A DNA stretch of 64,000 bases from Deltaproteobacteria bacterium (GTDB lineage Bacteria; Myxococcota; XYA12-FULL-58-9), in the NCBI GenBank assembly GCA_016218825.1, contig JACRCV010000042.1, forward strand, positions 50,041 to 114,040, read 5' to 3'. This document shows, piece by piece, positions 32,169 through 64,000 of the stretch. Positions within the stretch are counted from its first letter, which is position 1. Each line of letters begins with the position of its first letter. The notes under the pieces are model-generated. The model was given only the letters and a program-made list of their open reading frames with translations, did no database searches and was not told where the DNA came from. Made by a program: the position numbers and the translations under genes.

Positions 32169-32204
32169 GTCAGGCGAAGAAGCGCGCCAGGTGCGTGCGC
32201 AGCC

Positions 32205-32735
32205 GTGCTCGAGTCGGCCGCACTGCGGTGCTCGGGGGGCCGTGCTCGAGTCGGCCGCACTGCGCTGCTCGGGGGGCACCGCTCGCCTCCGTGGGTGCCT
32301 TCGACTTGGCGGTGCCTCGGTCGACGTTGAGTGCCGTATGCGATCTCGGCGCCTTCGACTGACGCGCCACCGTCGGCTTCGCGGCCCCCCTCTGCGCTGC
32401 TCGCGCGGCCGCGTTTGAGTCGCCGCACTGCGGTGCTCGGGGGCCGTGCTCGAGTCGCCGCACTGCGGTGCTCGGGGGCCGTGCTCGAGTCGGCCGCACT
32501 GCGCTGCTCGGGGGGCACCGCTCGCCTCCGTGGGTGCCTTCGATCTGGCGGTGCCTCGGTCGACGTTGAGTGCCGCATGCGATCTCGGCGCCTTCGACCG
32601 ACGCGCCACCGTCGGCTTCGCGGCCCCCCTCTGCGCTGCTCGCGCGGCCGTGTTCGAGTCGACCGCACTGCGGTGTTCGGGGGGCTGTGCTCGAGTCGGC
32701 CGCACTGCGCTGCTCGCGCGGCCGCGCTCGGTCCC
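32205..32735. repeat. Complex short-plus-long direct repeat array
   Basis: About seven degenerate copies of GTGCTCGAGTCGGCCGCACTGCGGTGCTCGGGGGGCC starting near 32205, 32242, 32413, 32446, 32481, 32650, 32687, plus a ~170-bp direct duplication (32242-32411 versus 32481-32650) with few mismatches. Confidence 0.85.
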
Positions 32736-32785
32736 CCCGCTAGGTTGAATGGGGAGCGCGGGCGCAGCGCCCGCGCGGGAATCAA
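32736..32785 (+). repeat. GC-rich inverted-repeat element (GGTCCCCCCGCTAGGTTG...GCGGGAATCAA), copy 1
   Basis: GGTCCCCCCGCTAGGTTGAATGGGGAGCGCGGGCGC-A-GCGCCCGCGCGGGAATCAA; perfect 10-bp arms 32756-32765/32767-32776. Confidence 0.8.
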
Positions 32786-32871
32786 GAGCCGAACCTGGCA
32801 CAACGAGCGATTCGCCCCCGCCCCACCCGGGGGCGGGATCCGGCGCGGCTTGGAAGGATTCAGGGGTGGGG

Positions 32872-32908
32872 GTGGGGAGCGCGGGCGCGGCGCCCGCGCG
32901 GGAATCAA
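32872..32908 (+). repeat. GC-rich inverted-repeat element, copy 2
   Basis: GGGGAGCGCGGGCGC-G-GCGCCCGCGCGGGAATCAA; perfect 10-bp arms 32879-32888/32890-32899. Confidence 0.8.
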
Positions 32909-32980
32909 AAGACGGAACCGGCAGACCGAGAAACGAAAGGCCGTATTCGAAGAACGCGATCCGGTGGAAAAAGTCAGCGC

Positions 32981-48596: not shown

Positions 48597-48708
48597 GGAG
48601 GCACCGAGCATCTGGCTCTGCCAGTGCGAGGTGCGGGGGTTCGGGGGGACGCAGAGCCGGCGCGCCGCGCCCCGAGAGAGCCTCGGGTATCGAGCCGGCG
48701 GGCGGTGC
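48597..48708 (+). repeat. Dispersed structured repeat, copy A (3' arm truncated)
   Basis: GGAGGCACCGAGCATCTGGCTCTGCCAGTGCGAGGTGCGGGGGTTCGGGGGGACGCAGAGCCGGCGCGCCGCGCCCCGAGAGAGCCTCGGGTATCGAGCCGGCGGGCGGTGCC. Confidence 0.9.
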
Positions 48709-48741
48709 CGAGAGAAGGTGCCCCGGAATCTCTACGGGGTT

Positions 48742-48990
48742 CTAGCGGGGCGGCTCACCCGCAAACGGCGGCTGCAGCGCGAGGGTGGGGTTTGCAGCGG
48801 CTTCTGGGCAGTTCTCGCGGCGCCAGGCCTTCTCACGCTTGAAGTCGTCGACCACATACGCGGCCTGCGGACGGTGGCGGTCGATCACGACGCCAACCAC
48901 GTCGACCAGATCCCACGCCAGAGCGCCCAGAAACTCGAAGAACGGCAGACGCGGAGTGCAACGATCGACGTTCGATGTCTCGCTTGCCAT
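48742..48990 (-). CDS. Small protein of unknown function (82 aa)
   Basis: MASETSNVDRCTPRLPFFEFLGALAWDLVDVVGVVIDRHRPQAAYVVDDFKREKAWRRENCPEAAANP...; GAGGAGG Shine-Dalgarno at good spacing. Confidence 0.6.
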   Translation of the reverse strand: MASETSNVDRCTPRLPFFEFLGALAWDLVDVVGVVIDRHRPQAAYVVDDFKREKAWRRENCPEAAANPTLALQPPFAGEPPR

Positions 48991-49162
48991 GTGGAACCTC
49001 CTCGAGGATGAAGAGCAAAGCCCTGGCCGTTTACAGCCGAGTGACTCGTTATCGGCGACCCTCCGGCGGTGTTGCGCCAACCGAAGTCGACACCGTCTCT
49101 CGCCAACGCCGAGAATGTGCTAGGGTGCCGCCGCGCTTCGAAAGCCCGAGGAGGTCAGAATC

Positions 49163-49435
49163 ATGAACCGCATCAAAGCGTTGGTCATCCTGGTGGCGGC
49201 GGCGGCGACTGTCTCCGTCATCGGTTGTGGCAGCACCGGCGCCTGCGTCGGCAGCGGCGGCGTGCTGTCGTCCCCGGAGTGCAAGGAGGATTGGAGCGAG
49301 GCGGAGTGCGACGACTGGGGCGCCCAAGGGGTCAACGGCGCCGCCTGGACCTACCACGGCGGCGACTCCTGCAGCGACCTCGGCTACACCTCGCAGTGCT
49401 CGGACGGCAGCTTCCGGCTGCCGGGGAACTGCTAG
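49163..49435 (+). CDS. Small lipoprotein (90 aa)
   Basis: MNRIKALVILVAAAATVSVIGCGS lipobox; Cys-rich mature part; GAGGAGG upstream. Confidence 0.8.
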   Translation: MNRIKALVILVAAAATVSVIGCGSTGACVGSGGVLSSPECKEDWSEAECDDWGAQGVNGAAWTYHGGDSCSDLGYTSQCSDGSFRLPGNC

Positions 49436-49556
49436 GAGGCATCGAGCATCTGGCTCTGCCAGTGCGAGGTGCGGGGGTTCGGGGGGACGCAGAGCCGGCG
49501 CGCCGCGCCCGAGAGAGCCTCGGGTATCCAGCCGGCGGGCGGCCCCCCCGCTCTAG
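49433..49556 (+). repeat. Dispersed structured repeat, copy B
   Basis: Same consensus as copy A, immediately abutting the stop codon of the 49163-49435 CDS; ends GGGCGGCCCCCCCGCTCTA. Confidence 0.9.
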
Positions 49557-49599
49557 AGCCCGGATCACGCCGGTTTGGCGTCGAGCGCTTCGGTGACGC

Positions 49600-51369
49600 C
49601 TAAGGCACCGTCCTGTACGCCCCGGCGTCCCACGGCGCGCTCAGTGCCCGCCCGGCGAGATCCACCAGGAACGTGGACGACATCGGGAAGTCCGGATCGA
49701 ACGCATATTGGGTCGCGAACAGCGCGCTGTAGCTCTCGAAGATTGGCTGCAACACCGCCGTCAGGTCGGCGCCGGAGCCGATACAGGCGGCACCCGCCGT
49801 CGGGTCGAGTTGATAGTCGCCGCCGGCGGCGTCGGCGAACACCGCGCTGCTCGCCGAGACGCAGTTGCCCTCGGCCACCGACCCGGTGCTCGTGCCGTCG
49901 ACGGTGAAGCCGGCCCCGGGGCTCGCGAAGGCAAACAGGTTGTTCGCGATCCGCGCATCGGTCGAGCTGTCGGCGAGCGGCACCGGGCCGTTGCCGACCA
50001 GGGTGTTGTTCGCGAACACCAGGCCGACCGAGTGCCGAAAGGCATAGCGACCGCTGCTGCCGTTTTCCGCCAACAGGTTGCCGTAGAACACCTCGTCGTA
50101 CGACACGCCGCCGGCCTGCTTGGCGTACTCCTCGATGATCCAATACCCGGCGTTGTCGTGGATCGCGTTGCGGCTGAAGAGGTTCTGGCGATGGCCGTTC
50201 GGGGCGTTGTGCAGCGGCCCGTGATCGTACGACAGGATCATGTCGCCGCTGCAGCCGGTCACCTCGTTCTGCACCACCAGCGACCGATAGTTGCCGGAGA
50301 GAGCGATGCCGTCGCCGCAGTCGGCGCGCCCGAAGGCGCTCGGGTCCGCGAACGCCGCGTAGCGGCCGAGATCGATCGTGGTGTAGCCGCCGCCGACGAC
50401 GAGCGCGTTGAAGCGGGCGTAGCTGGTCACCAGGTTGTTGTAGACGACGTTGTAGTTGCCGCAGCCGATGTCGAGGCCCATGGTGCTGCCGACGATGACG
50501 TTGTCGTAGGCCTGGACGTTGTCGGCGAGCTCGTTGCCGATACCGGCGCCGACGCTCGAGCCGCCGATGTCGTAGATCAGGTTGCGGCGGATGACGATGC
50601 GGCGCGGGCGCTGGGCGAGCGGCGGAGTGCCACCCCAGGTGCCCTGGACGTCGATGCCGGACCAGTCGCGGTTGCTGTGCACCACCGAGTCCTCGACGAC
50701 GATGTCGTGGGTGTTGCGGCCCTGGATCTTGATGATCTCCTCGCCGACGTCGTGGACGTCGAGGTTGCGCAACACGATGTCGTGGCTGCCGTCGGTGCTC
50801 GTGCCGGAGGTCGCGCTCACCAGCACGCCGTAGCGCTCGGCGCCGGTGTTCGCGATCTCCAGGTTCTCGATCGTGACGTGATGCCGGCCGATGAGGTTCA
50901 ACACCCCGCGCCAGCTGCCGACGCTGCCGCCGCCGGTGAGCAGCGCGCTGCGATCCGCCGGGCCGCGCACGACGATCGCGCCGCCGGCCTCGCCCGACAC
51001 CGTGACGTCGAACTGCCCGGCGTAGGTCCCGGGCCGCACCTCGATGACGGTGCCCGGCGTCGCGGTCGACAGCGCGGTCTTCAGCGCCGCGGCGGAGGCC
51101 ACCACCATCACGCCGCTCGGATCGACCACCGGGGCACCGGCGTCGCTCGGGGTGCTCGGGTCGCCGGAGTCGCCGGAGTCGCCGCCGGTCGGGCACGGAT
51201 CACCGGCGCTCGCCGGGTCGGCCCCGGCATCGGCCGCGTCGTCCTCCGCCACCTCCGACCCCGACGCCAACGCCGCGGTCCCCAACGTGCCGCTGCAGCC
51301 CGGCGCCACGATGATCACGAAGAGGGCGAGACCGCAGGCGCAAACAACTGCCGAGCACCGAGTCACCAT
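49600..51369 (-). CDS. Secreted parallel beta-helix lipoprotein (polysaccharide-lyase/DUF1565-like fold)
   Basis: Lipobox LFVIIVAPGCSG; VVASAAALKTALSTATPGTVIEVRPGTYAG...HHVTIENLEIANTG...HDIVLRNLDVHDVGEEIIKIQG...RIVIRRNLIYDIGG. Confidence 0.85.
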   Translation of the reverse strand: MVTRCSAVVCACGLALFVIIVAPGCSGTLGTAALASGSEVAEDDAADAGADPASAGDPCPTGGDSGDSGDPSTPSDAGAPVVDPSGVMVVASAAALKTALSTATPGTVIEVRPGTYAGQFDVTVSGEAGGAIVVRGPADRSALLTGGGSVGSWRGVLNLIGRHHVTIENLEIANTGAERYGVLVSATSGTSTDGSHDIVLRNLDVHDVGEEIIKIQGRNTHDIVVEDSVVHSNRDWSGIDVQGTWGGTPPLAQRPRRIVIRRNLIYDIGGSSVGAGIGNELADNVQAYDNVIVGSTMGLDIGCGNYNVVYNNLVTSYARFNALVVGGGYTTIDLGRYAAFADPSAFGRADCGDGIALSGNYRSLVVQNEVTGCSGDMILSYDHGPLHNAPNGHRQNLFSRNAIHDNAGYWIIEEYAKQAGGVSYDEVFYGNLLAENGSSGRYAFRHSVGLVFANNTLVGNGPVPLADSSTDARIANNLFAFASPGAGFTVDGTSTGSVAEGNCVSASSAVFADAAGGDYQLDPTAGAACIGSGADLTAVLQPIFESYSALFATQYAFDPDFPMSSTFLVDLAGRALSAPWDAGAYRTVP

Positions 51370-51519
51370 GGCTCCTCCAGTTCGAGTTGCCGCGTCGCCA
51401 AAACAACAACGATCCGGGCCGGCCGTTCTTTCCGCGGCCCGCGGCGACGATAAAAACACTCATCAATACGGCATGTTATGATGGCAAACGCGCGGCGCCG
51501 GCCGCGGCCCGGGGGAGGC

Positions 51520-52899
51520 TCAGTCGGTGACGCAGCGCACGAGCGGTGCGACGACGCTCTTGTCGGCGTCGGCGTCCTTGCCGGCCGCGAAGTCGAGCAC
51601 CCAGGCGTTCGGCGCCACCTGCCCGCGGCGGCTGGTGCCGCTCCAAAAGGGCGACGGCGGGGTGCCAACGAAGGCGGTGGTGTCGGTCGCCGCGTCGGGG
51701 CTGTTCGGGGTGCGGATGTCGGCGAGGCTCAAGAGCTCGTTCAAGTTCGGCAGCCGCCAGTTGCTGCGGCCACCCCAATCGAGGCTGTCGCAGTAGGCGA
51801 GCGCGCCCTGCCAGTCGAAACCGGCGGCTGCGCCGACGGCGCAGCTCGAGCCCGACATCCCCGCCGGGCAGCCCTGCCAGAGGAGGCCGGTCCGCGAGTC
51901 GCGGACCGTTCGGTCGCTGGCGGTGTCCACCTCGTAGCGCACCAGGGGCAACGGGACGGTCGCGTGGTCGGTGCGGACGCAGCGCACCGAGCAGAGGTTG
52001 GTCTTGCCGTAACCCCGAGAGAGACCGCCGCTGCCGAGGTAGACGACCCAGCCGGTGCCGTCCCACTGCGCGGTCGCCGAGGTCCAGGCCCAGAGCCCCG
52101 AGGCGATGCCGGGGAACACGCCGGCATCCAGCGCCGGCGCCGGCACCTCGAAGTCGATGATCGAGCGGGCCTCGAACGGGTCGGGCACGCGCCAGTCGTC
52201 GAAGCCGCTCCAGACCAGGTCTTCACACTCGGTGTGCGCCCTGTCGAAGGTAAAGCCGTCGGTCGAGCCCGTGAGGTTGGCGCAGCCGGCGCCGCCGCGC
52301 CCGACGACGCAGGCGAGCCACATCAGGCCGGTGACCGCGTCGGTCACCACCGGCTCCTCGGCGGCACCGAAGACGTGGCGCACGAAGCGCTCGCCGACGG
52401 ACGGGTGCAGGACGTCCCAACCGACCTGCGCGTCCTGGCCGTAGAACGGCTCGCCCGACTGCGGACAGGCGCCCAGCACGCCGGCGGCGTCGTAGCAGAG
52501 GGTCACGCTGGTGTCGGGGATCGCGAAGCCGGGGCCGGGCGGGTTGCACCCCGGTGTCCCGCAGCCCGGCGACGCGCACCCTTGGTCGATGCAGAGGTCG
52601 TAGCTGAAGCCCGGCGGGTCCGCGGTGTTGCAGCGGCTCAGGTCGGGCAGCGCTGCGCAGGAGCTCGGCAGGCACTCTTGGCCGGCCGGGTCGTAGCCGG
52701 GATCACAGACGCAGCCGGCCGCGCCGCCGGCGTCGACGCAGCGCCCGTGGTTCGAGCACCGGACCCCGATGCACACCGGCGGCAGGCCGTGCTCGACGAT
52801 GTCGGAGCGCCCGCACGCCGCCATGAGCGCGAGCCCGGCCAAAGCGACGACCGCGAAAGAACGCAGCGCGAGACGGGAAGGATCAGCGCGTCGCACCAT
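51520..52899 (-). CDS. Lipoprotein with EGF-like Cys region and two DUF1566-type domains
   Basis: VVALAGLALMAACGRS lipobox; VTDAVTGLMWLAC...DDWRVPDPFEARSIIDF and RTGLLWQGC...SNWRLPNLNELLSLAD...PFWSGTS. Confidence 0.85.
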   Translation of the reverse strand: MVRRADPSRLALRSFAVVALAGLALMAACGRSDIVEHGLPPVCIGVRCSNHGRCVDAGGAAGCVCDPGYDPAGQECLPSSCAALPDLSRCNTADPPGFSYDLCIDQGCASPGCGTPGCNPPGPGFAIPDTSVTLCYDAAGVLGACPQSGEPFYGQDAQVGWDVLHPSVGERFVRHVFGAAEEPVVTDAVTGLMWLACVVGRGGAGCANLTGSTDGFTFDRAHTECEDLVWSGFDDWRVPDPFEARSIIDFEVPAPALDAGVFPGIASGLWAWTSATAQWDGTGWVVYLGSGGLSRGYGKTNLCSVRCVRTDHATVPLPLVRYEVDTASDRTVRDSRTGLLWQGCPAGMSGSSCAVGAAAGFDWQGALAYCDSLDWGGRSNWRLPNLNELLSLADIRTPNSPDAATDTTAFVGTPPSPFWSGTSRRGQVAPNAWVLDFAAGKDADADKSVVAPLVRCVTD

Positions 52900-53947
52900 C
52901 GCATCCTAGTTCTAGACGCAAGGCGCTGACCAGCGTCTCGTAGCGTCCGGCGGGGAATCGGCGTTGGTGACGCTTGGTCGCCGCGCAGCCGGCCTCCGGG
53001 TCTTTGAGCCGGGACGCCAGCACGTCGCAGAGCTCGTAGCTCAAGCTCTCCTCGAGATCGCGGTCATGAAGCTCGGGGAGCACTTGCTGCAGGCGCAGGG
53101 CGAGGTCGCGGAAGCGCTTGCGGATCCGGAGCTCCTCGAGCTCGGCCAAGACCGCGGCGACGTCCAGAGGCGCGCGAGCCTCCGCCAGCGCCGGCCGGGG
53201 GGAGAGACGACGCCCCTTGATGGCCTTGGCGACCGGAGCCTTCGCAGCGCTCGCCTGGAGCACGTCCACCGCGGGCAGGTCCACCGCGGGGCTGCGGTCG
53301 GGAGCCGGCGCCGGCCGCTCCGGCCAATCGAGCCCTTGGCCCGGCCCGAGCGTGACCTCGGCGCGGTTCGGCCGGTGAAACTTGACCTTGCCCTCGTGCA
53401 CCGTGACGTGACCGCCGCCGTCCCCTTGGACGATCGTGAAGCGGGTCCCGACGACCTCGATGCTGCCGTCCGACACCGCGACCACGAACGGCGGCAGCGT
53501 GCGCGGCCGCGGCGCCACGGTGAGCTCCACCTGCCCGAACACCACGCGGAGGTCCTTGCCCTCGCGCCGCACGTGGCTCTTCGGGAAGACCGCGAGCCGC
53601 ACCCCGAGCGCCGCCGAGTGGAGCTCGGCGCTCCCGGCCGCCACCCGAACGCCGTCGTGCCCGTCGGCCTCGAGGCGGAGCGCGCCCTGTCGGGACGCCA
53701 CCTCGAACCCGGCGATCGGCATCGACCGGCGGTGCGCCACGACGACCGCCAGGCCCGCCGCCACCGCGGCGGCGAAGCTCAGCCCCAACGCCAGGCGTCT
53801 CGTCCACGGCCGGGCGTTTGTGACCCGGCCGGCCCGCTCCGCCCGGAGCTGCCGGAAGGAACCGGCCGGCGCCTCGAGATCGGTGAGGTCGGCGTCGAGC
53901 GCGAACAGGGCGCCCTTCAGGTCACGAACCCGCGTCGGCTCAACCAT
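52883..53947 (-). CDS. FecR-domain protein
   Basis: One TM, then GSAELHSAALGVRLAVFPKSHVRREGKDLRVVFGQVELTVAPR...VSDGSIEVVGTRFTIVQGDGGGHVTVHEGKVKFHR. Confidence 0.88.
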   Translation of the reverse strand: MVEPTRVRDLKGALFALDADLTDLEAPAGSFRQLRAERAGRVTNARPWTRRLALGLSFAAAVAAGLAVVVAHRRSMPIAGFEVASRQGALRLEADGHDGVRVAAGSAELHSAALGVRLAVFPKSHVRREGKDLRVVFGQVELTVAPRPRTLPPFVVAVSDGSIEVVGTRFTIVQGDGGGHVTVHEGKVKFHRPNRAEVTLGPGQGLDWPERPAPAPDRSPAVDLPAVDVLQASAAKAPVAKAIKGRRLSPRPALAEARAPLDVAAVLAELEELRIRKRFRDLALRLQQVLPELHDRDLEESLSYELCDVLASRLKDPEAGCAATKRHQRRFPAGRYETLVSALRLELGCDGATR

Positions 53948-54497
53948 CGCCCACCTCGAAGCCCCGATCGCGCAAGCGCCCTGCCGCCCTCTTCAGGAGC
54001 TTCGAGACCTGCCCTTCGCTCCGCGCCAGCGCATGCGCGATCTCGGTCTGCGACCGCCCGTCCAAGTGCTTCATCACCACCGCGGCGCGCTCCTCGGCCG
54101 ACAGGCTCGCGAGCGCCTCCCAGAGGTGGCGCCAATCGCGCCGGGTCTGCACCGTGCGCTCCGGCGACGGCGGCGCGCTCCTCCCGGGCTCGGCGGCGAG
54201 CGCCGCCTGCACCCGCGCAAAGACGCCGCGCTCGCGCCGCTGCCGATCGATGCACAGCCGGGTGGCGACGGTCAGCAGCCAACCGGCGATGTTGGCGCCG
54301 CGGTCGAGGCTCGAGGCGTTCGCCATCAGCCGCATGAAGACGTCGTGGGTCGCGTCGGCGGCGAAGTCGCGGTCACCGCTCGCGAACATCAGGCAGCGGC
54401 GGTAGACCAACGGTCCGTGCCGGGTGTACTGCTCCTCCACGAACTCCTCCTCGTCGGAGGATAACGAACGAACGGGCTCGGTCTTTCCGGCGCTCAC
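53940..54497 (-). CDS. ECF-type RNA polymerase sigma factor
   Basis: LVYRRCLMFASGDRDFAADATHDVFMRLM...IAGWLLTVATRLCIDRQRRE...LSAEERAAVVMKHLDGRSQTEIAHALARSEGQVSKLLKRA. Confidence 0.92.
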   Translation of the reverse strand: MSAGKTEPVRSLSSDEEEFVEEQYTRHGPLVYRRCLMFASGDRDFAADATHDVFMRLMANASSLDRGANIAGWLLTVATRLCIDRQRRERGVFARVQAALAAEPGRSAPPSPERTVQTRRDWRHLWEALASLSAEERAAVVMKHLDGRSQTEIAHALARSEGQVSKLLKRAAGRLRDRGFEVGDG

Positions 54498-55450
54498 GGC
54501 GCGGCATCATAGGCGAGAGTGAGGGCCGCCGCGAGGCGGGCCGGCGTCGCCTCCCAGAGCGTGGTGCCGGTCTCGCGGTCCTCGTGCACCCGCCGGACCC
54601 GCGACAGGACCAGCCGCAGCTCCAACCCCAGCGCGAGCCCGGCGCCGACCCGAAGCCCGCCGGCGACGCTTGAATCAACAACGAAATCATACCGTTTGCC
54701 GCGGTCGCCCGGGCCGTCGCCGTCGTCGAAAGCGAAGTGGTGCGCCCACAAGCCGAGGCCCGCCACCGCCGTGAGGCTCGCGCGGTCTCCGGCGGCGCGC
54801 ACGCCGACGCCGGCGCGCGGCTCCCACTCGAAGATGGACAGGCGCCTGTCGACCCCGAGCGCCCGGGCGGCGGTGACGCCGAGGGCGCCCTGCCACCAAC
54901 CGGTGCGCGGCCCGAGCCACGCCTGGAGGTCGACGAGGGCGGAGACGCTCCCCGGGTTCCAGAGACCGCCGAGCCCCAGCTTCACGCCCTCGGCAAACGC
55001 CGACACCGGTGGCGGCGCGGGCGCCGGGCCGGGCGGCGGCGGCGAGGCGTCCACGGCCGGCGCAACGAGATGGACGCGGGCTTCGCGCAGCAGCGTGATC
55101 GCACGGTGCAGGGTCGCGAGGTGGGCGTCCTCGAGGCCGTGGCCGCGCCACACCACTCGATCCTCGTAGCTGCCGGCCTCGGAGCGCACGACGACGAGGA
55201 GGGTGTCGGCCTCGGGCTGCGACAGGGTCAAGACCAGGGCCGCGACGCCGCCGGAATCGACCGCGGCCAGGCCCTCCTGGGTGACGCGCAAGAGCAGGCT
55301 CTTGTAGAGGTCGCCCACCCGTAGCCGTTCGTAGGCGGCGTGGTCGATGCCCCGGACCTCGATCGCGACCGTGGGCGGCGGGCGGTCTTGGGCCGGGGAC
55401 GCCGCTAAGCACACCGAAACAAGGGCCGCCGCGAGAGCAGTCATCAGCAT
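54494..55450 (-). CDS. Secreted protein of unknown function, co-operonic with ECF sigma/FecR
   Basis: Signal LMTALAAALVSVCLAA; ATGA overlap with the sigma-factor gene; beta-rich C-terminus. Confidence 0.75.
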   Translation of the reverse strand: MLMTALAAALVSVCLAASPAQDRPPPTVAIEVRGIDHAAYERLRVGDLYKSLLLRVTQEGLAAVDSGGVAALVLTLSQPEADTLLVVVRSEAGSYEDRVVWRGHGLEDAHLATLHRAITLLREARVHLVAPAVDASPPPPGPAPAPPPVSAFAEGVKLGLGGLWNPGSVSALVDLQAWLGPRTGWWQGALGVTAARALGVDRRLSIFEWEPRAGVGVRAAGDRASLTAVAGLGLWAHHFAFDDGDGPGDRGKRYDFVVDSSVAGGLRVGAGLALGLELRLVLSRVRRVHEDRETGTTLWEATPARLAAALTLAYDAAP

Positions 55451-55496
55451 CGCTTGCGCCGACCATGCCACAGTGGGCCGCGCGATCAATGGGGCG

Positions 55497-55551
55497 GCGC
55501 CGCGCCCCGAGAGAGCCTCGGGTATCGAGCCGGCGGGCGGTCCCCCCGCTC
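55497..55551 (+). repeat. Dispersed structured repeat, partial copy C1 (3' half)
   Basis: GCGCCGCGCCCCGAGAGAGCCTCGGGTATCGAGCCGGCGGGCGGTCCCCCCGCT. Confidence 0.85.
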
Positions 55552-55552
55552 C

Positions 55553-55675
55553 AGGAGGCATCGAGCATCTGGCTCTGCCAGTGCGAGGTGCGGGGGTTCG
55601 GGGGGACGAGAGAGCCGGCGCGCCGCGCCCGGAGAGAGCTTCGGGTGTCGAGCCGGCGGGCGGTCCCCCCGCTCT
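55553..55675 (+). repeat. Dispersed structured repeat, copy C2
   Basis: GGAGGCATCGAGCATCTGGCTCTGCCAGTGCGAGGTGCGGGGGTTCGGGGGGACG...GCCGGCGGGCGGTCCCCCCGCTCTA. Confidence 0.9.
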
Positions 55676-57758
55676 AAAGGAACTTCTGCGCGAACTCCGC
55701 GCTCTTCAGCATGTCGGCGGCACGCTCAACCCGGTTGCCGGCGTTGATGGCGTCGATGGTGGACGCGAGGCCGCCGGGGTCCGCTTCCCGCCCGAGGATG
55801 CCGCGGTAGAGCTCCTTCGCCAGCTGCTCCGCGGTGAGCTGCGAGCGCTGCTCTGCATACTCCGGGCTCGAGAACAGCGTCTGGCAGAAGGTCTCCATCG
55901 TCATGCCGTTCGTGATCGCGTCGGTGTAGCTGGCGAGGCCACCCGCGTCCGGCTCGCGGCCCAGGATGCCGCGGTAGCCGTGGGTGACCTTGATCGAGGC
56001 CGCGGAGGCGGTGGGAGGCTGCGGCGTCCCGGGCGTCTGGCCGCTGCCGACGACGATGGCGACGTTCGTGGACTTGGCGCCGAACCAGGCGACGGCGTCC
56101 TGGAGCATCTGCCACTGGAAGTTGTAGGTGCCGGCGGCGGCGGGCGCGGTCAGGGTCGCGCTGAGCTCGGTGGTGGCGCCGCTGGGCACGCTGGCGGCCG
56201 CGGGGAACGCGATGCGGTTCGTGCCCCAGGTCATGTTGTCGCGGGGGTTCTCGGAGCCGAGGTAGTAGCGGGCCGCGAGCGACCAGGTCGCAGAGCCGGT
56301 GTTGCGCATCGAGATCCTGACCGTGAAGCGCTGCCCCGGGCTGACGCTCGCCGGCACCACCTGCGACACGAACAGGGCGGCGTTGGCGCCGGTCGGCGTG
56401 ACCGGTGGCTGTGGATTGTCGCCGGGCGGTGGGGTGCTGGGCAGGCTCGAGCCGAGCGGCCGCTCGCCGCGCAGCATCTTGGTGGCCTCGCCGGCCAGCC
56501 GCAGGTACCAGTCGCTCGGCACCGCCTCGCCGTCGACGTCGAGGGGCAGGAACGACGCCTGCACCGGGGTCGCCGCGGTCGTCGCCGCGACCTTCAGCAT
56601 CGCGGTGCCCTCGTCGACCTCGTCGAACATCGCGCCGAAGAGCATCTTGCTGCCGGCGGCGATCGCGTTGTAGGCCTGACGCCAGTAGAACCGGCCGCCG
56701 CGCCGTGGGATCAGGTTGTACGGCGAGTCCTCGCCGCGCACCCGCATGAGGTTGTGCCAGGAGAAGCCCGGGAAGATGACCGGCATGTAGTCGCGGCCGT
56801 TGTTCCTGGCCTCGGCGAGGTCGGCGCTGATGGTCCGCTTGTAAGAGTCGGCGCCGGCGTCGTCGCCAAACGCGCCCACCGCCCAGGGGCTGATGATGTC
56901 GAAGGAGCGATAGATGGCGGCCCAGGCGGGATCGGTCTTCGACGCGCCGCCAAGGCTGCGCCAATGAAGCGGCACGCCGCCCAAGAGCGTCACCTGCTCG
57001 GCGCCCGGCGCGCTCCTTTGGAAGTGATCGATGATGGCGCGCGCCTGGTCGGGGGTGCCGACGCGGTCGTTGAAGCCCAGGCCCCAGATGGCCAAGACCG
57101 GCTTGCCGTTGTGCCGCAGGTAGCGCGAGCTCTCGGTGATGCGGAGGGTGTTCACCATGTATGCCCAGTCGCGCTTCACGACGTCGACCAGGCTCGACTC
57201 ACTCGCGCCGGAGACGTCGTACATCAGCGCGAACACCCGGCCGTGGGCCTCGGCGCCGGCGCGCACGTTCGCCGCCACCTTGTTGCGGAAGTCGAACAAG
57301 GCGGCGTTGCCGAGCTCGCCGGTGAAGCGCTGCAGCAAGACGCCGTCGATGCCGTAGTCCTGCATCCACTTGAAGTGGCGGACCACGGTCTTCTGCCGAT
57401 AGGCCGAGTAGAGCGGCGCGGCGCTGCCGTCGGGCTTGGTGAAGCCGGTGTTGCAGCGCTCGTCGGCGTCCAGCTCCGACATCTCGGGCCAGAGATCGAC
57501 GGTCGGGGTGCTCGGTGACGCGCGGCCTTGGAACCAGTGGACCCAGTTGTTGACCCGCGAGCCGTCGCCGGGACACCCGAACCAGCCCTGGTACCCCATC
57601 ATCATCTTGCCGTTCATGCTGTCGGTCGAGACCAGGCTCTGGTCCTCGTCGCCCGGCTCGAGCACCTCGAGGGCGGCCTCGGTGCCGCACGCCACCGGGA
57701 GCGCGAGGGTGGCGAGAAGCGAGGCGAGGCGCGGCGCGCTCGGAGCGAATGCGGTCAT
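55674..57758 (-). CDS. GH71/GH99-like secreted protein with NBR1-Ig-like domain and two DUF4214 repeats
   Basis: GKMMMGYQGWFGCPGDGS...HFKWMQDYGIDGVLLQRF...; FVSQVVPASVSPGQRFTVRISMRNTGSATWS; YRGILGREPDAGGLASYTDAI and LYRGILGREADPGGLASTIDAI. Confidence 0.85.
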   Translation of the reverse strand: MTAFAPSAPRLASLLATLALPVACGTEAALEVLEPGDEDQSLVSTDSMNGKMMMGYQGWFGCPGDGSRVNNWVHWFQGRASPSTPTVDLWPEMSELDADERCNTGFTKPDGSAAPLYSAYRQKTVVRHFKWMQDYGIDGVLLQRFTGELGNAALFDFRNKVAANVRAGAEAHGRVFALMYDVSGASESSLVDVVKRDWAYMVNTLRITESSRYLRHNGKPVLAIWGLGFNDRVGTPDQARAIIDHFQRSAPGAEQVTLLGGVPLHWRSLGGASKTDPAWAAIYRSFDIISPWAVGAFGDDAGADSYKRTISADLAEARNNGRDYMPVIFPGFSWHNLMRVRGEDSPYNLIPRRGGRFYWRQAYNAIAAGSKMLFGAMFDEVDEGTAMLKVAATTAATPVQASFLPLDVDGEAVPSDWYLRLAGEATKMLRGERPLGSSLPSTPPPGDNPQPPVTPTGANAALFVSQVVPASVSPGQRFTVRISMRNTGSATWSLAARYYLGSENPRDNMTWGTNRIAFPAAASVPSGATTELSATLTAPAAAGTYNFQWQMLQDAVAWFGAKSTNVAIVVGSGQTPGTPQPPTASAASIKVTHGYRGILGREPDAGGLASYTDAITNGMTMETFCQTLFSSPEYAEQRSQLTAEQLAKELYRGILGREADPGGLASTIDAINAGNRVERAADMLKSAEFAQKFL

Positions 57759-58035
57759 GGGCAGTTCTCCTCGTCCTTCGCAGAACGCACGATCCATGCC
57801 GCCGTACGCCGCGCGGCCGGGGTTGGGGAAGCCGGACCGCCGGCGAGGATTATCTCGAATACTCGGCTAATTACGGCGACTGCGCGGCCGGGCGCGCGAA
57901 CGGCGGACGGCCGCGAAGAGCGCGCGCGTAGCCAGGCTGCTACTCGGGAACGCCCGGGTGCCTCGGCGCCGGGTCGGATTTGCCGCTACCCCGGGTCTTG
58001 GGGCATGCTGACTCACCTTCCGGAGGGGCGCTCGC

Positions 58036-58869
58036 ATGCGACATTATCGGCCGGCAGAGAATCCATCCGCGTTTCGCAAGCTGGCGGCGGCGATGTGGCA
58101 CGCGCCGAACGACCCGCACATCTTCGGCATCCTCGACCTGGATCTCACCGAGGTGTTGAAGTTCCTCGAGCAGTACAACAAGGAGCGCGGCTGCAAGGCG
58201 ACGATCACCCACGTGATGACGCGGACGCTGGCGATGACGCTCGCGAAGCACCCGGAGTACAACGCCAAGATCGGCTGGAGCCAGATCCGGGTCCGCAATT
58301 CCGTCGACATCTTCTGCCAGGTGTCGACCGACGGCGGTCGCGACCTCTCGGGCTACAAGATCCAGGGCGTCGACAAGCTCTCGATCGCCGGCATCGCCGC
58401 CGCCCTCACCAAGGCCGCAGGCGACATCCGCGCCGACCGCGACCCGGCGTTCAAGCGCAGCCGCAACATGCTCCAGACCCTGCCGCTGTGGGCGCTGCGC
58501 ATCATCCTGTGGTTCATGAACCTGCTCACCAACAAGCTCGACCTCGACCTGCCGAAGCTCGGGATGCCGCGCGACCCCTTCGGCAGCGCGATGGTGACCA
58601 GCGTCGGCATGCTCGGCATCGACGCCGGCTTCGCGCCCTTCACCCCCATCGCGCGGTGCCCGATCATCATCACCGTGACCCGGGTGAAGCCACGCCCGTG
58701 GGTGGTGGGGGACAAGGTCGAGCCGCGGCCGGTGCTGCGCTTGTGCGGAACCTTCGATCACCGCGTCATCGACGGCTACCACGCCGGCGTCATCTCCGGC
58801 GACATCGAGCGGCTAATCGCCGAGCCTGGGCTCTTGCTCACGGATGCGGAGCAGCCGACGGCACGCTGA
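58036..58869 (+). CDS. Stand-alone 2-oxoacid dehydrogenase acyltransferase (E2) catalytic-domain protein
   Basis: Ends ...PVLRLCGTFDHRVIDGYHAGVISGDIERL (DHRVxDG active site); no lipoyl or E3-binding domain in the 277-aa ORF. Confidence 0.82.
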   Translation: MRHYRPAENPSAFRKLAAAMWHAPNDPHIFGILDLDLTEVLKFLEQYNKERGCKATITHVMTRTLAMTLAKHPEYNAKIGWSQIRVRNSVDIFCQVSTDGGRDLSGYKIQGVDKLSIAGIAAALTKAAGDIRADRDPAFKRSRNMLQTLPLWALRIILWFMNLLTNKLDLDLPKLGMPRDPFGSAMVTSVGMLGIDAGFAPFTPIARCPIIITVTRVKPRPWVVGDKVEPRPVLRLCGTFDHRVIDGYHAGVISGDIERLIAEPGLLLTDAEQPTAR

Positions 58870-59013
58870 GACGGCCCGCTCCTGCGATCCGACAGGGAGC
58901 ACGCGCCCTACTCACGCCCCGCGCCTCGAGCTCGGCCGCGCTATTGCATCGCCGCTACCGGCCGCTGCCCCGAGACCGTCGGCCTGAGCCCGGCGGCCTC
59001 GGGGCCGAGCGCT

Positions 59014-61494
59014 TCAGAGCTTCGCCGCGGCCGGCGTCGCGGCCGTGGGTGCCGGCGACGCGACCGCCAGCTCGGTGCTGTGCACCTGGAGATAGACGTC
59101 GACGATCGCGCCCTCGCGCAGGTGGCCGGCGGTGTCGACCCAGAAGAAGCGGGCCCGCAGCCCTTCGCAGTTGCCGCGCGCGTCGCAGCGCGAGCCGGCG
59201 CTGTAGTCCAGCTCCAAAGAGACGATGCCGAGCGCGCCGACCGGCTCGAGCTCGTCCGGCGTCGAGATCCGATCGCCGTCCAGGTCCGCCCAGGCGACGA
59301 GGTCGGTGAAGCTCGAGTCGAGGCCGTCGACGACGCCGTCTTGGTTGTCGTCCATGGTGGCGAGCGCCTCGAAGCCGTGCGCCGCGTGGCCGCCGTCGAC
59401 CGGGGTCGCCGAGCCGAACAGCTCTTCGCCCGAGGAGATGCTGCCGTCGCCGTCCCGGTCGTAGGCCAGCCACGGGGTGGCCGCCGTCGGCCAGTCGGTG
59501 CGGAGGATGGGCGCCTCGCCGGCCGCGGCCAGGTTGAAGCTGCCGGCGCCGTCGTCGGCGTTGTAGCTCACCGGCGCCTCGGGGTCGAACACCAACACCA
59601 GCGGCGTGGTGCAGGTGTAGGTCGTGCAGCTGGACGCCTGGTAGCAGCTGAAGGTGTCGCCGGACCGGACCACGGTGCCGGAGCAGCGGGCATCGACCCA
59701 GTCCCGGTGCGCTCTGTCCCACGCGGTGCCGCCGTCGACGGCCCGATGGCACCAGAAGGACAGGTAGCTCGCCGAGCAGTGGTTGGGGTTCTCGGTCATG
59801 CATTGATCGGCCAAGGCGTTCCGATCGCCGTTCGTCAGCATCGCGCCGCTCCAGCGGTTACAGGCGTAGAAGTTGGTGCAGGTCGACGTCGTCTTCACGC
59901 CTTCGTCGGTCTTCCCGTCGCAGTCGTTGTCCTTGCCGTCACAGACCTCTGCCGGCACCGCGCCGCACGAGCCGCAGATGTTCGTCACGTTCTCGTCGAT
60001 CTGGCCGTCGCAGTCGTTGTCTCTGCCGTCACAGACCTCGACCGGCACCGCGCCGCAGGCGCCGCAGATGTTCGTCACGCCCTCGTCGATCTGGCCGTCG
60101 CAGTCGTTGTCCCTGCCGTCACAGACCTCGACCGGCACCGCGCCGCAGGCGCCGCAAATGTTCGTCACGCCCTCGTCGATCGCGCCGTCGCAGTCGTTGT
60201 CTCTGCCGTCACAGACCTCGACCGGCACCGCGCCGCAGGCGCCGCAGGCGTTCTTCACGCCCTCGTCGATCTCGCCGTCGCAGTCGTTGTCGGCGCCGTC
60301 GCAGAGCTCGGCCGGGACCTCGCCGCAGGCGCCGCAGATGTTCGTCACGTTCTCGTCGATCTGGCCGTCGCAGTCGTTGTCGGCGCCGTCGCAGAGCTCG
60401 GCCGGGACCTCGCCGCAGGCGCCGCAGGCGTTCGTCACGCCGTCGTCGATCTCGCCGTCGCAGTCGTTGTCGACGCCGTCGCAGAGCTCGGCCGGGACCT
60501 CGCCGCAGGCGCCGCAGGCGTTCTTGACGTCCTCGTCGATCTCGCCGTCGCAGTCGTTGTCGACGCCGTCGCAGAGCTCGGATGAAGGCACGCAGCAGCT
60601 CGGCGCCGCGTCGCAGTCCTCGCTGTCGTCGCAGTCGGCGAGGCCGTCGCAGTCGTCGTCCTTGCCGTTGCCGCAGTCCTCGGCCATGTCGATCGCGACC
60701 GGCTCGCAGGTCAGCTCGCCGTCGACGCAGTTGAGGGTGCTCTGGGCGCACTCGCCTTCGCCGGGGCCGCAGGCGTCGCCGCCGTCCGGGTTGCCTTCGT
60801 CGATCTCGCCGTTGCAGTTGTTGTCGCGCGCGTCACAGACCTCGGCGTCGTCAGCCAGGCAGCCCACGCCCGGCGTCGGCGTCGTGGTGCAGGTGCTGCC
60901 GGCCTTGATCTCGAAGTCGACGATGCCCTGGGGATAGATGCGGTCGTAGGTCAGGCAGACCTCGACGGTGTCGCCGGCGTCGATGCCGCGGTCGAACTTG
61001 ACCCCGTGGATCGAGTCGCACTCCGGATGGTCGAAGTCGCCGAGATCAGGGGCGGCCACGCTGTCGCCGTTCAGCGTGACCTCGACCAGATGGTCGTCGC
61101 AGGCCGCCAACGTGCCGACCACCCAGTGACTCACCTCGGGTTGCGCCATCCCCTGCAGCTGGTAGCAAGCCGTCGTCTGGCACGCCTCGTCGTTCTGGTC
61201 GTACGAGATCAGGATCACGCGCGCGGCGCAGCGGCAGCTCGGGTCGGTGCAGTCGCTGCACGCGACGCAGGTGCTGTCCGTGCACGCTTCGCCGACCTGA
61301 CAATCGCTCGCGGTCTCACAGGCCTGCGCCTCGAGGCCGCCGGCGGCGCTGGCGCTCACCTGCGACCGATCGCGGGAGTCGTTGGCCCGGACCATCCCCG
61401 CCTCGCAGGCCGGCAGGAGCACGGCCAGCAACACCAAACACCCAAACCCCGCGCTGTTCTTCGACCCCCCGGCCTGCAAAACAACTTGGAACAT
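59014..61494 (-). CDS. Lipoprotein with MopE-type putative metal-binding repeats and EF-hand-like C-terminus
   Basis: CLVLLAVLLPACEAG lipobox; tandem CDGxDNDCDGxIDEGVTNxCGACGxVPxEx; DRDGDGSISSGEEL and DLDGDRISTPDEL. Confidence 0.88.
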   Translation of the reverse strand: MFQVVLQAGGSKNSAGFGCLVLLAVLLPACEAGMVRANDSRDRSQVSASAAGGLEAQACETASDCQVGEACTDSTCVACSDCTDPSCRCAARVILISYDQNDEACQTTACYQLQGMAQPEVSHWVVGTLAACDDHLVEVTLNGDSVAAPDLGDFDHPECDSIHGVKFDRGIDAGDTVEVCLTYDRIYPQGIVDFEIKAGSTCTTTPTPGVGCLADDAEVCDARDNNCNGEIDEGNPDGGDACGPGEGECAQSTLNCVDGELTCEPVAIDMAEDCGNGKDDDCDGLADCDDSEDCDAAPSCCVPSSELCDGVDNDCDGEIDEDVKNACGACGEVPAELCDGVDNDCDGEIDDGVTNACGACGEVPAELCDGADNDCDGQIDENVTNICGACGEVPAELCDGADNDCDGEIDEGVKNACGACGAVPVEVCDGRDNDCDGAIDEGVTNICGACGAVPVEVCDGRDNDCDGQIDEGVTNICGACGAVPVEVCDGRDNDCDGQIDENVTNICGSCGAVPAEVCDGKDNDCDGKTDEGVKTTSTCTNFYACNRWSGAMLTNGDRNALADQCMTENPNHCSASYLSFWCHRAVDGGTAWDRAHRDWVDARCSGTVVRSGDTFSCYQASSCTTYTCTTPLVLVFDPEAPVSYNADDGAGSFNLAAAGEAPILRTDWPTAATPWLAYDRDGDGSISSGEELFGSATPVDGGHAAHGFEALATMDDNQDGVVDGLDSSFTDLVAWADLDGDRISTPDELEPVGALGIVSLELDYSAGSRCDARGNCEGLRARFFWVDTAGHLREGAIVDVYLQVHSTELAVASPAPTAATPAAAKL
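59941..60590 (-). repeat. 90-bp (30-aa) coding tandem repeats in the MopE-like gene
   Basis: Repeat start positions 59941, 60031, 60121, 60211, 60301, 60391, 60481, 60571 are exactly 90 bp apart. Confidence 0.9.
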
Positions 61495-61789
61495 CGTCGC
61501 GCCCCCTTGTTCGTGGTTGAAGAAGGTAGCGAACCTGACTGCAACCGCCGGGCCGCCGCCCGGGGCCGTGAGGCGCCGGCGACCGCGAAAGAGAGATCGG
61601 CCGGAGATCAACCGGATCCGTCAGATCAAAGACGGTCAGCGCCACCCCGGCTGAGCCGCGAACGGGAACAGCGCGGCTCCTGGAGAAATCGTCGTGTTCT
61701 CGAGCAAGTGTGGGACACGTACCCACCGGCGCGTACACTGGGAACCTCGGTCGCTGTCACCTGGATCGGCTCCCCTTGCCCCACCCGGG

Positions 61790-61908
61790 GGCACCGAGCA
61801 GCTGGCTTTGCCAGGGCGAGGTGCGGGGGCACGGGGGGACGCAGAGCCGGCGCTCCACCTTCCGCGTGGTCCATGGACGGAGCGCCGGCGGGCGGTCCCC
61901 CCGCTAGG
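61790..61908 (+). repeat. Dispersed structured repeat, copy D (divergent inner arm)
   Basis: GGCACCGAGCAGCTGGCTTTGCCAGGGCGAGGTGCGGGGGCACGGGGGGACGCAGAGCCGGCGCTCC...GGAGCGCCGGCGGGCGGTCCCCCCGCT. Confidence 0.88.
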
Positions 61909-61955
61909 TTGGCTGGGGGTGGTGAGCGTGGCCGCATCGGCCGCGCGGGAATCAA
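61908..61955 (+). repeat. GC-rich inverted-repeat element, copy 3
   Basis: TAGGTTGGCTGGGGGTGGTGAGCGTGGCCGCATCGGCCGCGCGGGAATCAAA; arms 61926-61934/61938-61946. Confidence 0.78.
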
Positions 61956-61969
61956 AGGTGCAGCGCGCC

Positions 61970-63802
61970 TCAGTGGTTGGTGGTCAGGGTCCCGATGGTA
62001 ACGAGCGCGGTGGCCGGGGAGAGCCGGACGGTGCTCGACTGGCGCTTCTCGTCAAAGCGGCCGTAGTTGGTGAACAGGTCGACCCTCAACGTCACCGGGC
62101 CGCGACCCTGCGCCTCGTCCGGGAAGCCGACCTCGACGGTGTAGGTGCCGGGGAGCGCGCGGCGCAGGACGTACTCCTCGGGGCCGTAGCCGCCGACGAT
62201 GTCCTCGAGGAGGCGGCCGCCGATGCTGGTGCGGGGGTGGGCGTGATCGGCGCGCTCGCCCGAGGGCTCGGTCACCACCAGATCGAAGTCGAGCCGGTCG
62301 CTCTCCGAGCTGACGACGACGCGGACGTCGAAGTCCAAGAGCTTGATGAGCCGCAAGTCGAGGGGCAGCTTCGACACCCCGGCGGCGCGGGCCCTGGGGA
62401 GCATCGCGTTCAGCTCGATGAGCGCCGTCAGCTCGATGCCCTCGGGGCGCGGCCACGGCCGGAGCACGACCTGTGAGAGCAGCGCCAGCGCCTGCGCGTA
62501 CTGGCGCTGGCTGAATGCCGCGAGCGCGAGATCACGCCATGACTGCGGCTCGTCGGGCCGCAGTCGCGAGATCGCCTCGAACACCGCGGTGGCGAGCTCG
62601 GGCTCCTTCACCTGCTGCAGCCGCCACGCCAGCACCCGCAGCCGCCGGACGTCGCCGGCGGCGAGCTCGGCGACGTTCCCGAGCACCTGCAGCCCCAGGT
62701 CGTTCTGCTTCTTCCGGTAGAAGAAGTCCGCGCAGTCGAAGTAGAACAGCGGCACGGCGCCGTAGAGCTGCTTCTCTGCCAGATACACCGAGAGCCAGTC
62801 GCCCTTGGCCGCGCCCTCGAGCGCGCGAGGGTAGGGAGCGTCCTTCCCCCAGGGAGGGACGCCGTCGTCCGACTCCGTGGCCACGGCGGCGGCCGGCGTC
62901 TCACCCGCGGCGGCGCGCGACTCGGACTCCGGCTGACGCGGCTCGGTCGCGACCGGCGTGACGCGCTTCTTCGGGACCGCGTCGCGGAGCTTGGCGCCCT
63001 GCGGGTACTTGAAGCTCGTGCTCCACCACTCGACCAGGTCCTGCCAGCGCGCCACGAGCCGTTCGAGCCGCTCGTCGTCTGGGGGTTCCGGCGGGGGCTC
63101 CGGCGCGGCGTCCGGCGCGGGTGCAGTCATGGGTGCCTGCCGGGCGGCGGCTGGTTTTGGGGGCGCGGGCGGCCGCAGCGCCAGGGTCGCCGCGAGCTCG
63201 TCGTTTGCGCCGGCGGTCAGCGCGGCGTAGAGGCCGCCGCTCTCGAGGGCGAGCTGGGACAGGAGCGACGCCTCGGGGCCGGGATCGGCGGTCGTCACCA
63301 TCACCGGCGCCCTGAGGCGGAGCGGTGGCGGCGTGCCGAAGGACGACCGGCCGTCGGAGAACACCCAGTAGTAGTCCGGCACGCGCGCGCCGGTGAGGGG
63401 CGAAAGCGCCTCGAGGTTGGTGCCGCCGTCGTAGACCACGCCCGAGAGCGCGTCGAGGAGCAAGGTGGCGTCGCCGTGGTCGACGACGAAGCGGCGCGCC
63501 GGCGCGGCGCGGTGCCGGAAGACGACGAGGTCCACGGTGACGCGGACGTCGGCGAGCCTCACGAGCACGTCACGGACGAGCGCCAGCTCCGGGGCGTGAT
63601 CGGTCGAGGCGCGCGAGCCCGAGGCGTCCCAGAAGATCGTCAGGCGCGTGGGCTTGGCCGCCGGTCGCGGCGCCGGCGCGGCCGGGACCGGATGGCCGGC
63701 GACGTTGTCGGCGTTCGCGGCCGCGGGCGGCGGACCCTCTTCGGCCGGGCTCGCCGAGCTCATGCAAAGCGTGACGAGCAGTGCTGGAACGGCGCCGGTC
63801 AT
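61970..63802 (-). CDS. Secreted vWA-like protein with C-terminal DUF2135/YfaP-like domain
   Basis: LTIFWDASGSRASTDHAPELALVRDVL...DYYWVFSDGRSSF; C-term DFDVRVVVSSESDRLDFDLVVTEPSGERADHAHPRTSIGGRLLEDIVGGYGPEEYVLRRALPGTYTVEVGF. Confidence 0.82.
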   Translation of the reverse strand: MTGAVPALLVTLCMSSASPAEEGPPPAAANADNVAGHPVPAAPAPRPAAKPTRLTIFWDASGSRASTDHAPELALVRDVLVRLADVRVTVDLVVFRHRAAPARRFVVDHGDATLLLDALSGVVYDGGTNLEALSPLTGARVPDYYWVFSDGRSSFGTPPPLRLRAPVMVTTADPGPEASLLSQLALESGGLYAALTAGANDELAATLALRPPAPPKPAAARQAPMTAPAPDAAPEPPPEPPDDERLERLVARWQDLVEWWSTSFKYPQGAKLRDAVPKKRVTPVATEPRQPESESRAAAGETPAAAVATESDDGVPPWGKDAPYPRALEGAAKGDWLSVYLAEKQLYGAVPLFYFDCADFFYRKKQNDLGLQVLGNVAELAAGDVRRLRVLAWRLQQVKEPELATAVFEAISRLRPDEPQSWRDLALAAFSQRQYAQALALLSQVVLRPWPRPEGIELTALIELNAMLPRARAAGVSKLPLDLRLIKLLDFDVRVVVSSESDRLDFDLVVTEPSGERADHAHPRTSIGGRLLEDIVGGYGPEEYVLRRALPGTYTVEVGFPDEAQGRGPVTLRVDLFTNYGRFDEKRQSSTVRLSPATALVTIGTLTTNH

Positions 63803-63867
63803 GGCGCAGTGCTATCGCTTCTTCGTCCGAGGCTCCAGCGACGTGGCGCCGGCGTCAGCGTTACCGT

Positions 63868-63943
63868 TCACGGGGGACCGCCCGCCGCGGGAAGATCCTC
63901 GGCGAAAACAAGGCGTTGTGGCGCGGCTCTGCGTCCCCCGTGA
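63868..63943 (-). repeat. Dispersed structured repeat, divergent inverted copy E (second hairpin only)
   Basis: Minus strand TCACGGGGGAC-GCAGA-GCCGCG...CGCGGC-GGGCG-GTCCCCCGTGA; same loop sequences as copies B-D with a different stem sequence. Confidence 0.75.
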
Positions 63944-64000
63944 GCCCCACGCTCAGGACCGACAAAGCCGGATCCTTCGCGTCTACGGCCAGTTACGAGA

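Follow-up and report, generated by a model that had tools for sequence, protein, structure and literature searches.

Copies of the element in the window

The window analysed here is a stretch of 64,000 nucleotides (positions 50041–114040 of contig 14) from the draft genome of a Deltaproteobacteria bacterium of the phylum Myxococcota, which amounts to 6.54 Mb in 121 contigs. It contains six copies of a hairpin-forming repeat, named A, B, C1, C2, D, and the inverted copy E. An original prediction, made from the sequence alone, had proposed these copies as a candidate structured element, and all six were found at the positions that it gave. The boundaries set by a covariance model are shifted by a few nucleotides, except for copy E, which runs 42 nt further because its hairpin 1 had been overlooked. 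The peculiarities of single copies were also recovered, namely the lack of the 3′ outer arm in A, an A-C mismatch in B, and an altered loop strand in C2. The copies had been described as all lying between genes; they are intergenic, but B and C2 directly adjoin the stop codon of a flanking gene. Positions and parts are listed in Table 1.

Table 1. Copies of the element and related repeats mapped in the window
Feature	Position	Strand	Description
Copy A	48598..48712	+	A-type, core only; hairpin 2 without 3′ outer arm; covariance-model boundaries
Copy B	49436..49552	+	A-type, core only; starts at TAG stop of gene 49163-49435; CTAG at both flanks
Copy C1	55497..55551	+	A-type, 5′-truncated; directly upstream of C2
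Copy C2	55555..55673	+	A-type; 3′ end abuts TAG stop of minus-strand gene 55674-57758
Copy D core	61788..61905	+	B-type; covariance-model boundaries
Copy D shell, 5′ hairpin remnant	61774..61793	+	TTGCCCCACCCGGGGGC
Copy D shell, 3′ REP-like module	61920..61957	+	GGTGAGCG-palindrome-CGCGGGAATCAAA
Copy E core	63868..63985	-	E-type; covariance-model boundaries
Terminal inverted repeat of copy E element	63858..63871	-	GTGAACGGTAAC on minus strand; opposite end outside window
Decayed shell copy	32730..32785	+	Keeps only core right end (GGTCCCCCCGCTAG) and 3′ module
Shell copy without core	32812..32909	+	5′ hairpin, G-rich linker, 3′ module

Structure of the core and its covariation

The core is 85–125 nt long. 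A GCGGGGG linker joins its two hairpins, of which hairpin 1 carries tandem G.A mismatches and hairpin 2 the constant loop strands GCAGAG and GGGCG. One example of hairpin 1 reads GCACC-GA-GCA-x-CTGGC-TTT-GCCAG-TGC-GA-GGTGC, with the tip GGCTNNGCC, while hairpin 2 is laid out as CGGGGGGAC-GCAGAG-inner stem-variable part-inner stem-GGGCG-GTCCCCCCG. Predicted folds add two further pairs (GACGC with GCgGTC) and leave AGA opposite GG. In the inner stem, Watson-Crick pairs and tandem G.A/A.G mismatches replace one another freely, and the pairing-preserving change of this stem in copies D and E was found as predicted. In Holophagaceae the cores measure about 85–90 nt, the apical part being reduced to a short cap.

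The core structure is kept by selection, its stems being maintained by compensatory change. Among 40 diverse copies, standard pairs occupy 96% of the pair cells, and the covariation score is 0.405, against 0.106 when shuffled and 0.03–0.05 with slid partners. We then applied a phylogenetic-null test in the manner of R-scape, in which a tree is built from the alignment, ancestors are assigned by parsimony, and substitutions are redistributed over columns on each branch. With 74 copies of <90% identity, in an alignment fitted to the model, 11 of the 28 structural pairs were significant (E<0.05), as were no pairs outside the structure. Because that alignment had been fitted to the model, pairs were counted again on 99 copies aligned by the two loop strands only. 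Inner pair 2 was paired in 93% of these copies (52% shuffled), inner pair 4 in 71%, with an additional 20% A.G (38% shuffled), and outer pair 6 in 85% (39% shuffled). The helices had been predicted to covary around conserved purine-rich loop strands; both the phylogenetic null and the anchored alignment bear this out, and the pattern extends across phyla.

The strand shown here is taken as the folding strand because its recurrent tandem G.A mismatches would turn into C.T in the complement. Predicted folding energies alone do not discriminate between the two strands.

Distribution in Myxococcota and Acidobacteriota

The core occurs dispersed in many copies, and its structure is under selection. 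BLAST located it at 44 places in its own genome, where the covariance model gave at least 57 hits that fall into four or more subfamilies. Head-to-tail tandem copies are another feature of the family. A genome of the same genus holds two copies, one of them on a contig of Myxococcota bacterium isolate RA.bin128. The exact hairpin 2 pattern was run over 85,462 named genomes and its matches were re-scored with the covariance model. This gave 39 stretches, most of which the model confirmed; the confirmed carriers are Myxococcales AS27yjCOA_73, Deltaproteobacteria NC_groundwater_1658, Holophagaceae, Geothrix, another Acidobacterium, and MH_R1_5, which is labelled Bacillota yet was grouped with Acidobacteriota. 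Model copies per other genome numbered 30, 24, 11, 6, 4, 3, 1, and 1, the single copies being those of G198 and G199. Some distant pattern matches (Streptomyces, Alistipes, Microbispora, and others) had no model score and were discarded as chance.

In 396 sampled Acidobacteriota genomes, the pattern matched 129 times, in 25 genomes, and the reversed control pattern never. A model search of 195 genomes of the same phylum as the window, run in an insensitive mode with 18 candidates scored per genome, found the core in its own genus only. No match was found in viral contigs, nor in plasmids and phages for the copies tested. One core copy (L115, 701-809) occupies the spacer from the small signal recognition particle (SRP) RNA gene to a tRNA gene downstream; only a few bases separate it from the tRNA gene.

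Carriers of the core and evidence of mobility

The original prediction had treated the copies as one repeat family. They do have one core in common, but this core travels in three carriers: alone, in a larger shell, or in an element bounded by terminal inverted repeats (TIRs). A-type copies (A, B, and C in the window) have nothing but the core, flanked by CTAG-like sequences. In B-type copies (D) the core is enclosed by a shell, whose parts are a CCCC..GGGG hairpin, a G-rich linker, and a hairpin ending CGCGGGAATCAAA that resembles a repetitive extragenic palindrome (REP). E-type copies (E) have the core within a TIR element, with GTAACCGTTCACGG at one end and GTGAACGGTAAC at the other; on the right, the TIR and the 3′ arm of hairpin 2 overlap.

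E-type elements move by DNA transposition. The TIRs of the E-type and of the AS27yjCOA_73 family read GTAACCGTTCACGG / GTACCCGTTCACGG, with no open reading frame (ORF) inside. Target duplications of 8 bp, such as GCGCCCCG, GGCGTAGG, TCGGGCGC, and GCCAAGCC, flank the E-type, and in most distinct E-type and AS27yjCOA_73 insertions they agree at 7–8 of 8 bases. Among the matches listed, which include strand duplicates, 11 were found for the E-type (0.7 shuffled) and 17 for AS27yjCOA_73 (1.0 shuffled). Moreover, a blind scan over offsets and lengths recovered the 8-bp duplication of the E-type with a z of 9.6. The same-genus genome, whose DNA is only about 66% identical, offered no clean pre-insertion site that could be read. 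The GTAAGCG end together with the 8-bp duplication led us to IS66, the only parent family sought for the E-type, and its transposase is absent from the own genome. The copies had been held to be selected structure and not a decaying repeat. Covariation supports the selected structure, but the alternative was a false choice, since copies also multiply as mobile DNA, as the TIRs and 8-bp duplications of the E-type show.

The 3′ module of the shell occurs in at least 105 exact copies in the own genome, mostly without the core. The shell family is itself REP-like: it consists of CCCCGCCCCACCCGGGGGCGGGG, a G-rich linker, and GGGGAGCG-palindrome-CGCGGGAATCAAA, often ending CTAG. The palindrome of the 3′ module varies by matched changes, and the family also tends to end near a converging stop codon. 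Contigs of the own genome often end about 155–170 bp from this module (L033, L040, L041, L043, L044, L052, L053, and L056), because a few longer repeats, probably insertion sequences, occupy the loop of the shell 5′ hairpin; the shell looks like a preferred target of these repeats. In the window, GC-rich tandem repeats with periods of 37 bp and 239 bp (32190-32720) adjoin the decayed shell copy.

Position relative to gene ends

Surviving copies sit at gene ends; typically, the 3′ foot of hairpin 2 coincides with the stop codon of an opposite-strand gene or follows it closely. Gene positions were taken from a small codon-usage gene caller, and expected numbers assume that copies are placed uniformly in the spacer they occupy. 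Of the 53 converging genes on the right (3′) side, 25 had their stop codon at ≤9 nt, against 7.4 expected; the left-side control gave 7 against 7.0. Among independent Acidobacteriota copies, 20 have the 3′ end of a converging gene as their right neighbour, and 6 have a gene start there. The end of the element itself can complete the stop codon; several copies show this, with TA|GATC or T|GATC (G201, G001) or with the TAA inside the E-type TIR. In L095, L116, and L119, the core follows a terminator T-tract instead of a stop codon. Two E-type insertions at gene ends (L110, on contig 12 of G000, and L104, on contig 98) were also seen, in which the GTAA of the TIR or the duplicated target provides the stop codon and the protein is one residue shorter or unchanged.

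Between genes of the same direction, the folding strand is antisense to them in 45 of 62 cases (17:6, 15:9, and 13:2 in three sets). The 141 neighbour proteins fall into 178 Pfam families without recurrence beyond TPR, and these unrelated neighbours exclude a riboswitch of one regulon.

Interpretation and alternative explanations

We consider it probable that these copies represent a new cross-phylum element of Myxococcota and Acidobacteriota that is non-autonomous, REP-like, and mobile, and that has retained one folded core. In such an element, the constant loop strands GCAGAG and GGGCG may be the recognition surface for a mobilising or binding factor, as single-stranded DNA or as RNA. The location past stop codons may reflect tolerated insertion, and the element might in addition influence, in a REP-like way, how translation ends or how the 3′ end of the mRNA is formed or kept.

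Several observations weigh against this interpretation. The blind scan found no target duplication above noise in the A, B, Holophagaceae, and G201 subfamilies. No replication-strand bias was seen by GC skew (17:17), the skew in 20-kb pieces being too weak to decide. Counts of G.T against A.C (51 vs 24) speak for the folding strand in one set of aligned copies, but do not clearly do so in the anchored set. In addition, a candidate mobilising enzyme is not found among those sought (Y1 and IS66). Finally, the conservation of the loop strands over two phyla exceeds that of most REPs, and could indicate a function beyond spreading.

The likeliest of the alternatives, which we still regard as rather unlikely, is a functional structured RNA, either a small RNA or a processing or termination element of the 3′ untranslated region, that has been duplicated many times and for which the mobility of the E-type is incidental hitch-hiking. 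The strong covariation, the conserved purine-rich loop strands, and the tandem G.A motifs typical of RNA all suit it, as do the location at transcript ends, the single copy per genome in some species (G198 and G199), and singletons such as the one between the SRP RNA and tRNA genes. However, no tie to any gene class was found, the expansion is fast and lineage-specific, and the folding strand, being antisense to most same-direction neighbours, would lie outside their mRNA.

It is unlikely, though worth stating, that the family is a selfish cross-phylum one that owes its mobility to the conserved three-dimensional fold of the transferred strand (a single-stranded DNA or RNA intermediate). A putative enzyme not yet linked to such repeats would then act on this fold, aimed at gene ends in a fixed orientation, and the element would be a bacterial counterpart of the short interspersed nuclear element (SINE) rather than a REP.

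We think it very unlikely that the element is a member of a REP family mobilised on single-stranded DNA by a REP-associated tyrosine transposase (RAYT) or another Y1 (HUH) transposase. Its subterminal hairpins, the lack of target duplication in most subfamilies, the CTAG-like flanks of the A-type, and the high extragenic copy number point to such an enzyme, and the position near stop codons is like that of E. coli REPs (PMC12306157). But its two hairpins of 85–125 nt are not one 20–40 bp palindrome tagged with GTAG or CGTC (PMC3733652). A RAYT-mobilised REP was set aside because Y1_Tnp is absent from five of the six carrier genomes checked (G195, G196, G197, G200, and G202); the own genome has three Y1_Tnp genes, none flanked by the element. 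A known REP family had been named as a possible explanation of the copies, and this check gave no REP/RAYT association.

Integron attC sites belong to cassette arrays with an integrase and have a conserved GTTRRRY core; they come after stop codons, and their bottom strand recombines in folded form. The folding strand of the element is likewise antisense to the gene at whose stop codon it lies, and the element might be a recombination site comparable to an integron attC. It does not lie in cassette arrays, and around it are chromosomal genes without relation to one another, often housekeeping genes; judged by these neighbours, such a site is extremely improbable. A riboswitch or other cis-regulator, for example a relative of the cyclic di-GMP (c-di-GMP) riboswitch sharing a ACGCAAAGCC-like string, is hardly conceivable: the likeness (ACGCARAGCC) is confined to this string and was dropped, the gene context contradicts the reading, no Rfam match was obtained even at permissive thresholds, no downstream gene recurs, and most neighbours of the same direction have the element in antisense orientation.

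For the probable non-autonomous REP-like element, the interest lies in one complex fold with near-invariant loop strands that recurs in Acidobacteriota and Myxococcota on at least three vehicles. The element can serve to test the case of a repeat that selection maintains for its structure in addition to its sequence, and that of insertion at gene ends in a fixed orientation. Intergenic "structured RNA" candidates in both phyla, as well as breaks in draft assemblies, are worth screening against it, and a new family could readily be deposited, given the simplicity of the consensus and covariance model.

Comparison with known families

REP-like repeats are normally lineage-bound, simple palindromes. 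The element was predicted to be undescribed, and a scan of Rfam agrees, with no match at gathering or permissive thresholds; the open literature, searched by words and by sequence strings, also gave no description, subscription papers being outside this scope. Acidobacteria are known to have structured RNA motifs, Acido-1 and Acido-Lenti-1 (PMC2864571). Like these Rfam motifs, the element has a conserved, covarying secondary structure in Acidobacteria; unlike them, it is dispersed and mobile, and it matches no Rfam family.

The E-type and the AS27yjCOA_73 family resemble miniature inverted-repeat transposable elements (MITEs) in their TIRs, their 8-bp target duplication, and their lack of an ORF. 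The A, B, Holophagaceae, and G201 subfamilies differ from MITEs, having neither TIRs nor a detectable duplication, and the IS66 parent is absent.

REPs are single palindromes of 20–40 bp tagged with an unpaired GTAG or CGTC, and the CGTC class is likewise without a dedicated transposase (PMC3733652). In E. coli they are frequently found within 15 nt of stop codons, where they affect translation (PMC12306157). Compared with REPs and the bacterial interspersed mosaic elements (BIMEs), the element has two hairpins in 85–125 nt with conserved internal loop strands instead of one tagged palindrome, its tandems are head-to-tail instead of inverted pairs, and it has no RAYT link. It is like them in being short, extragenic, hairpin-forming, of high copy number, and near stop codons, with lineage-specific subfamilies.

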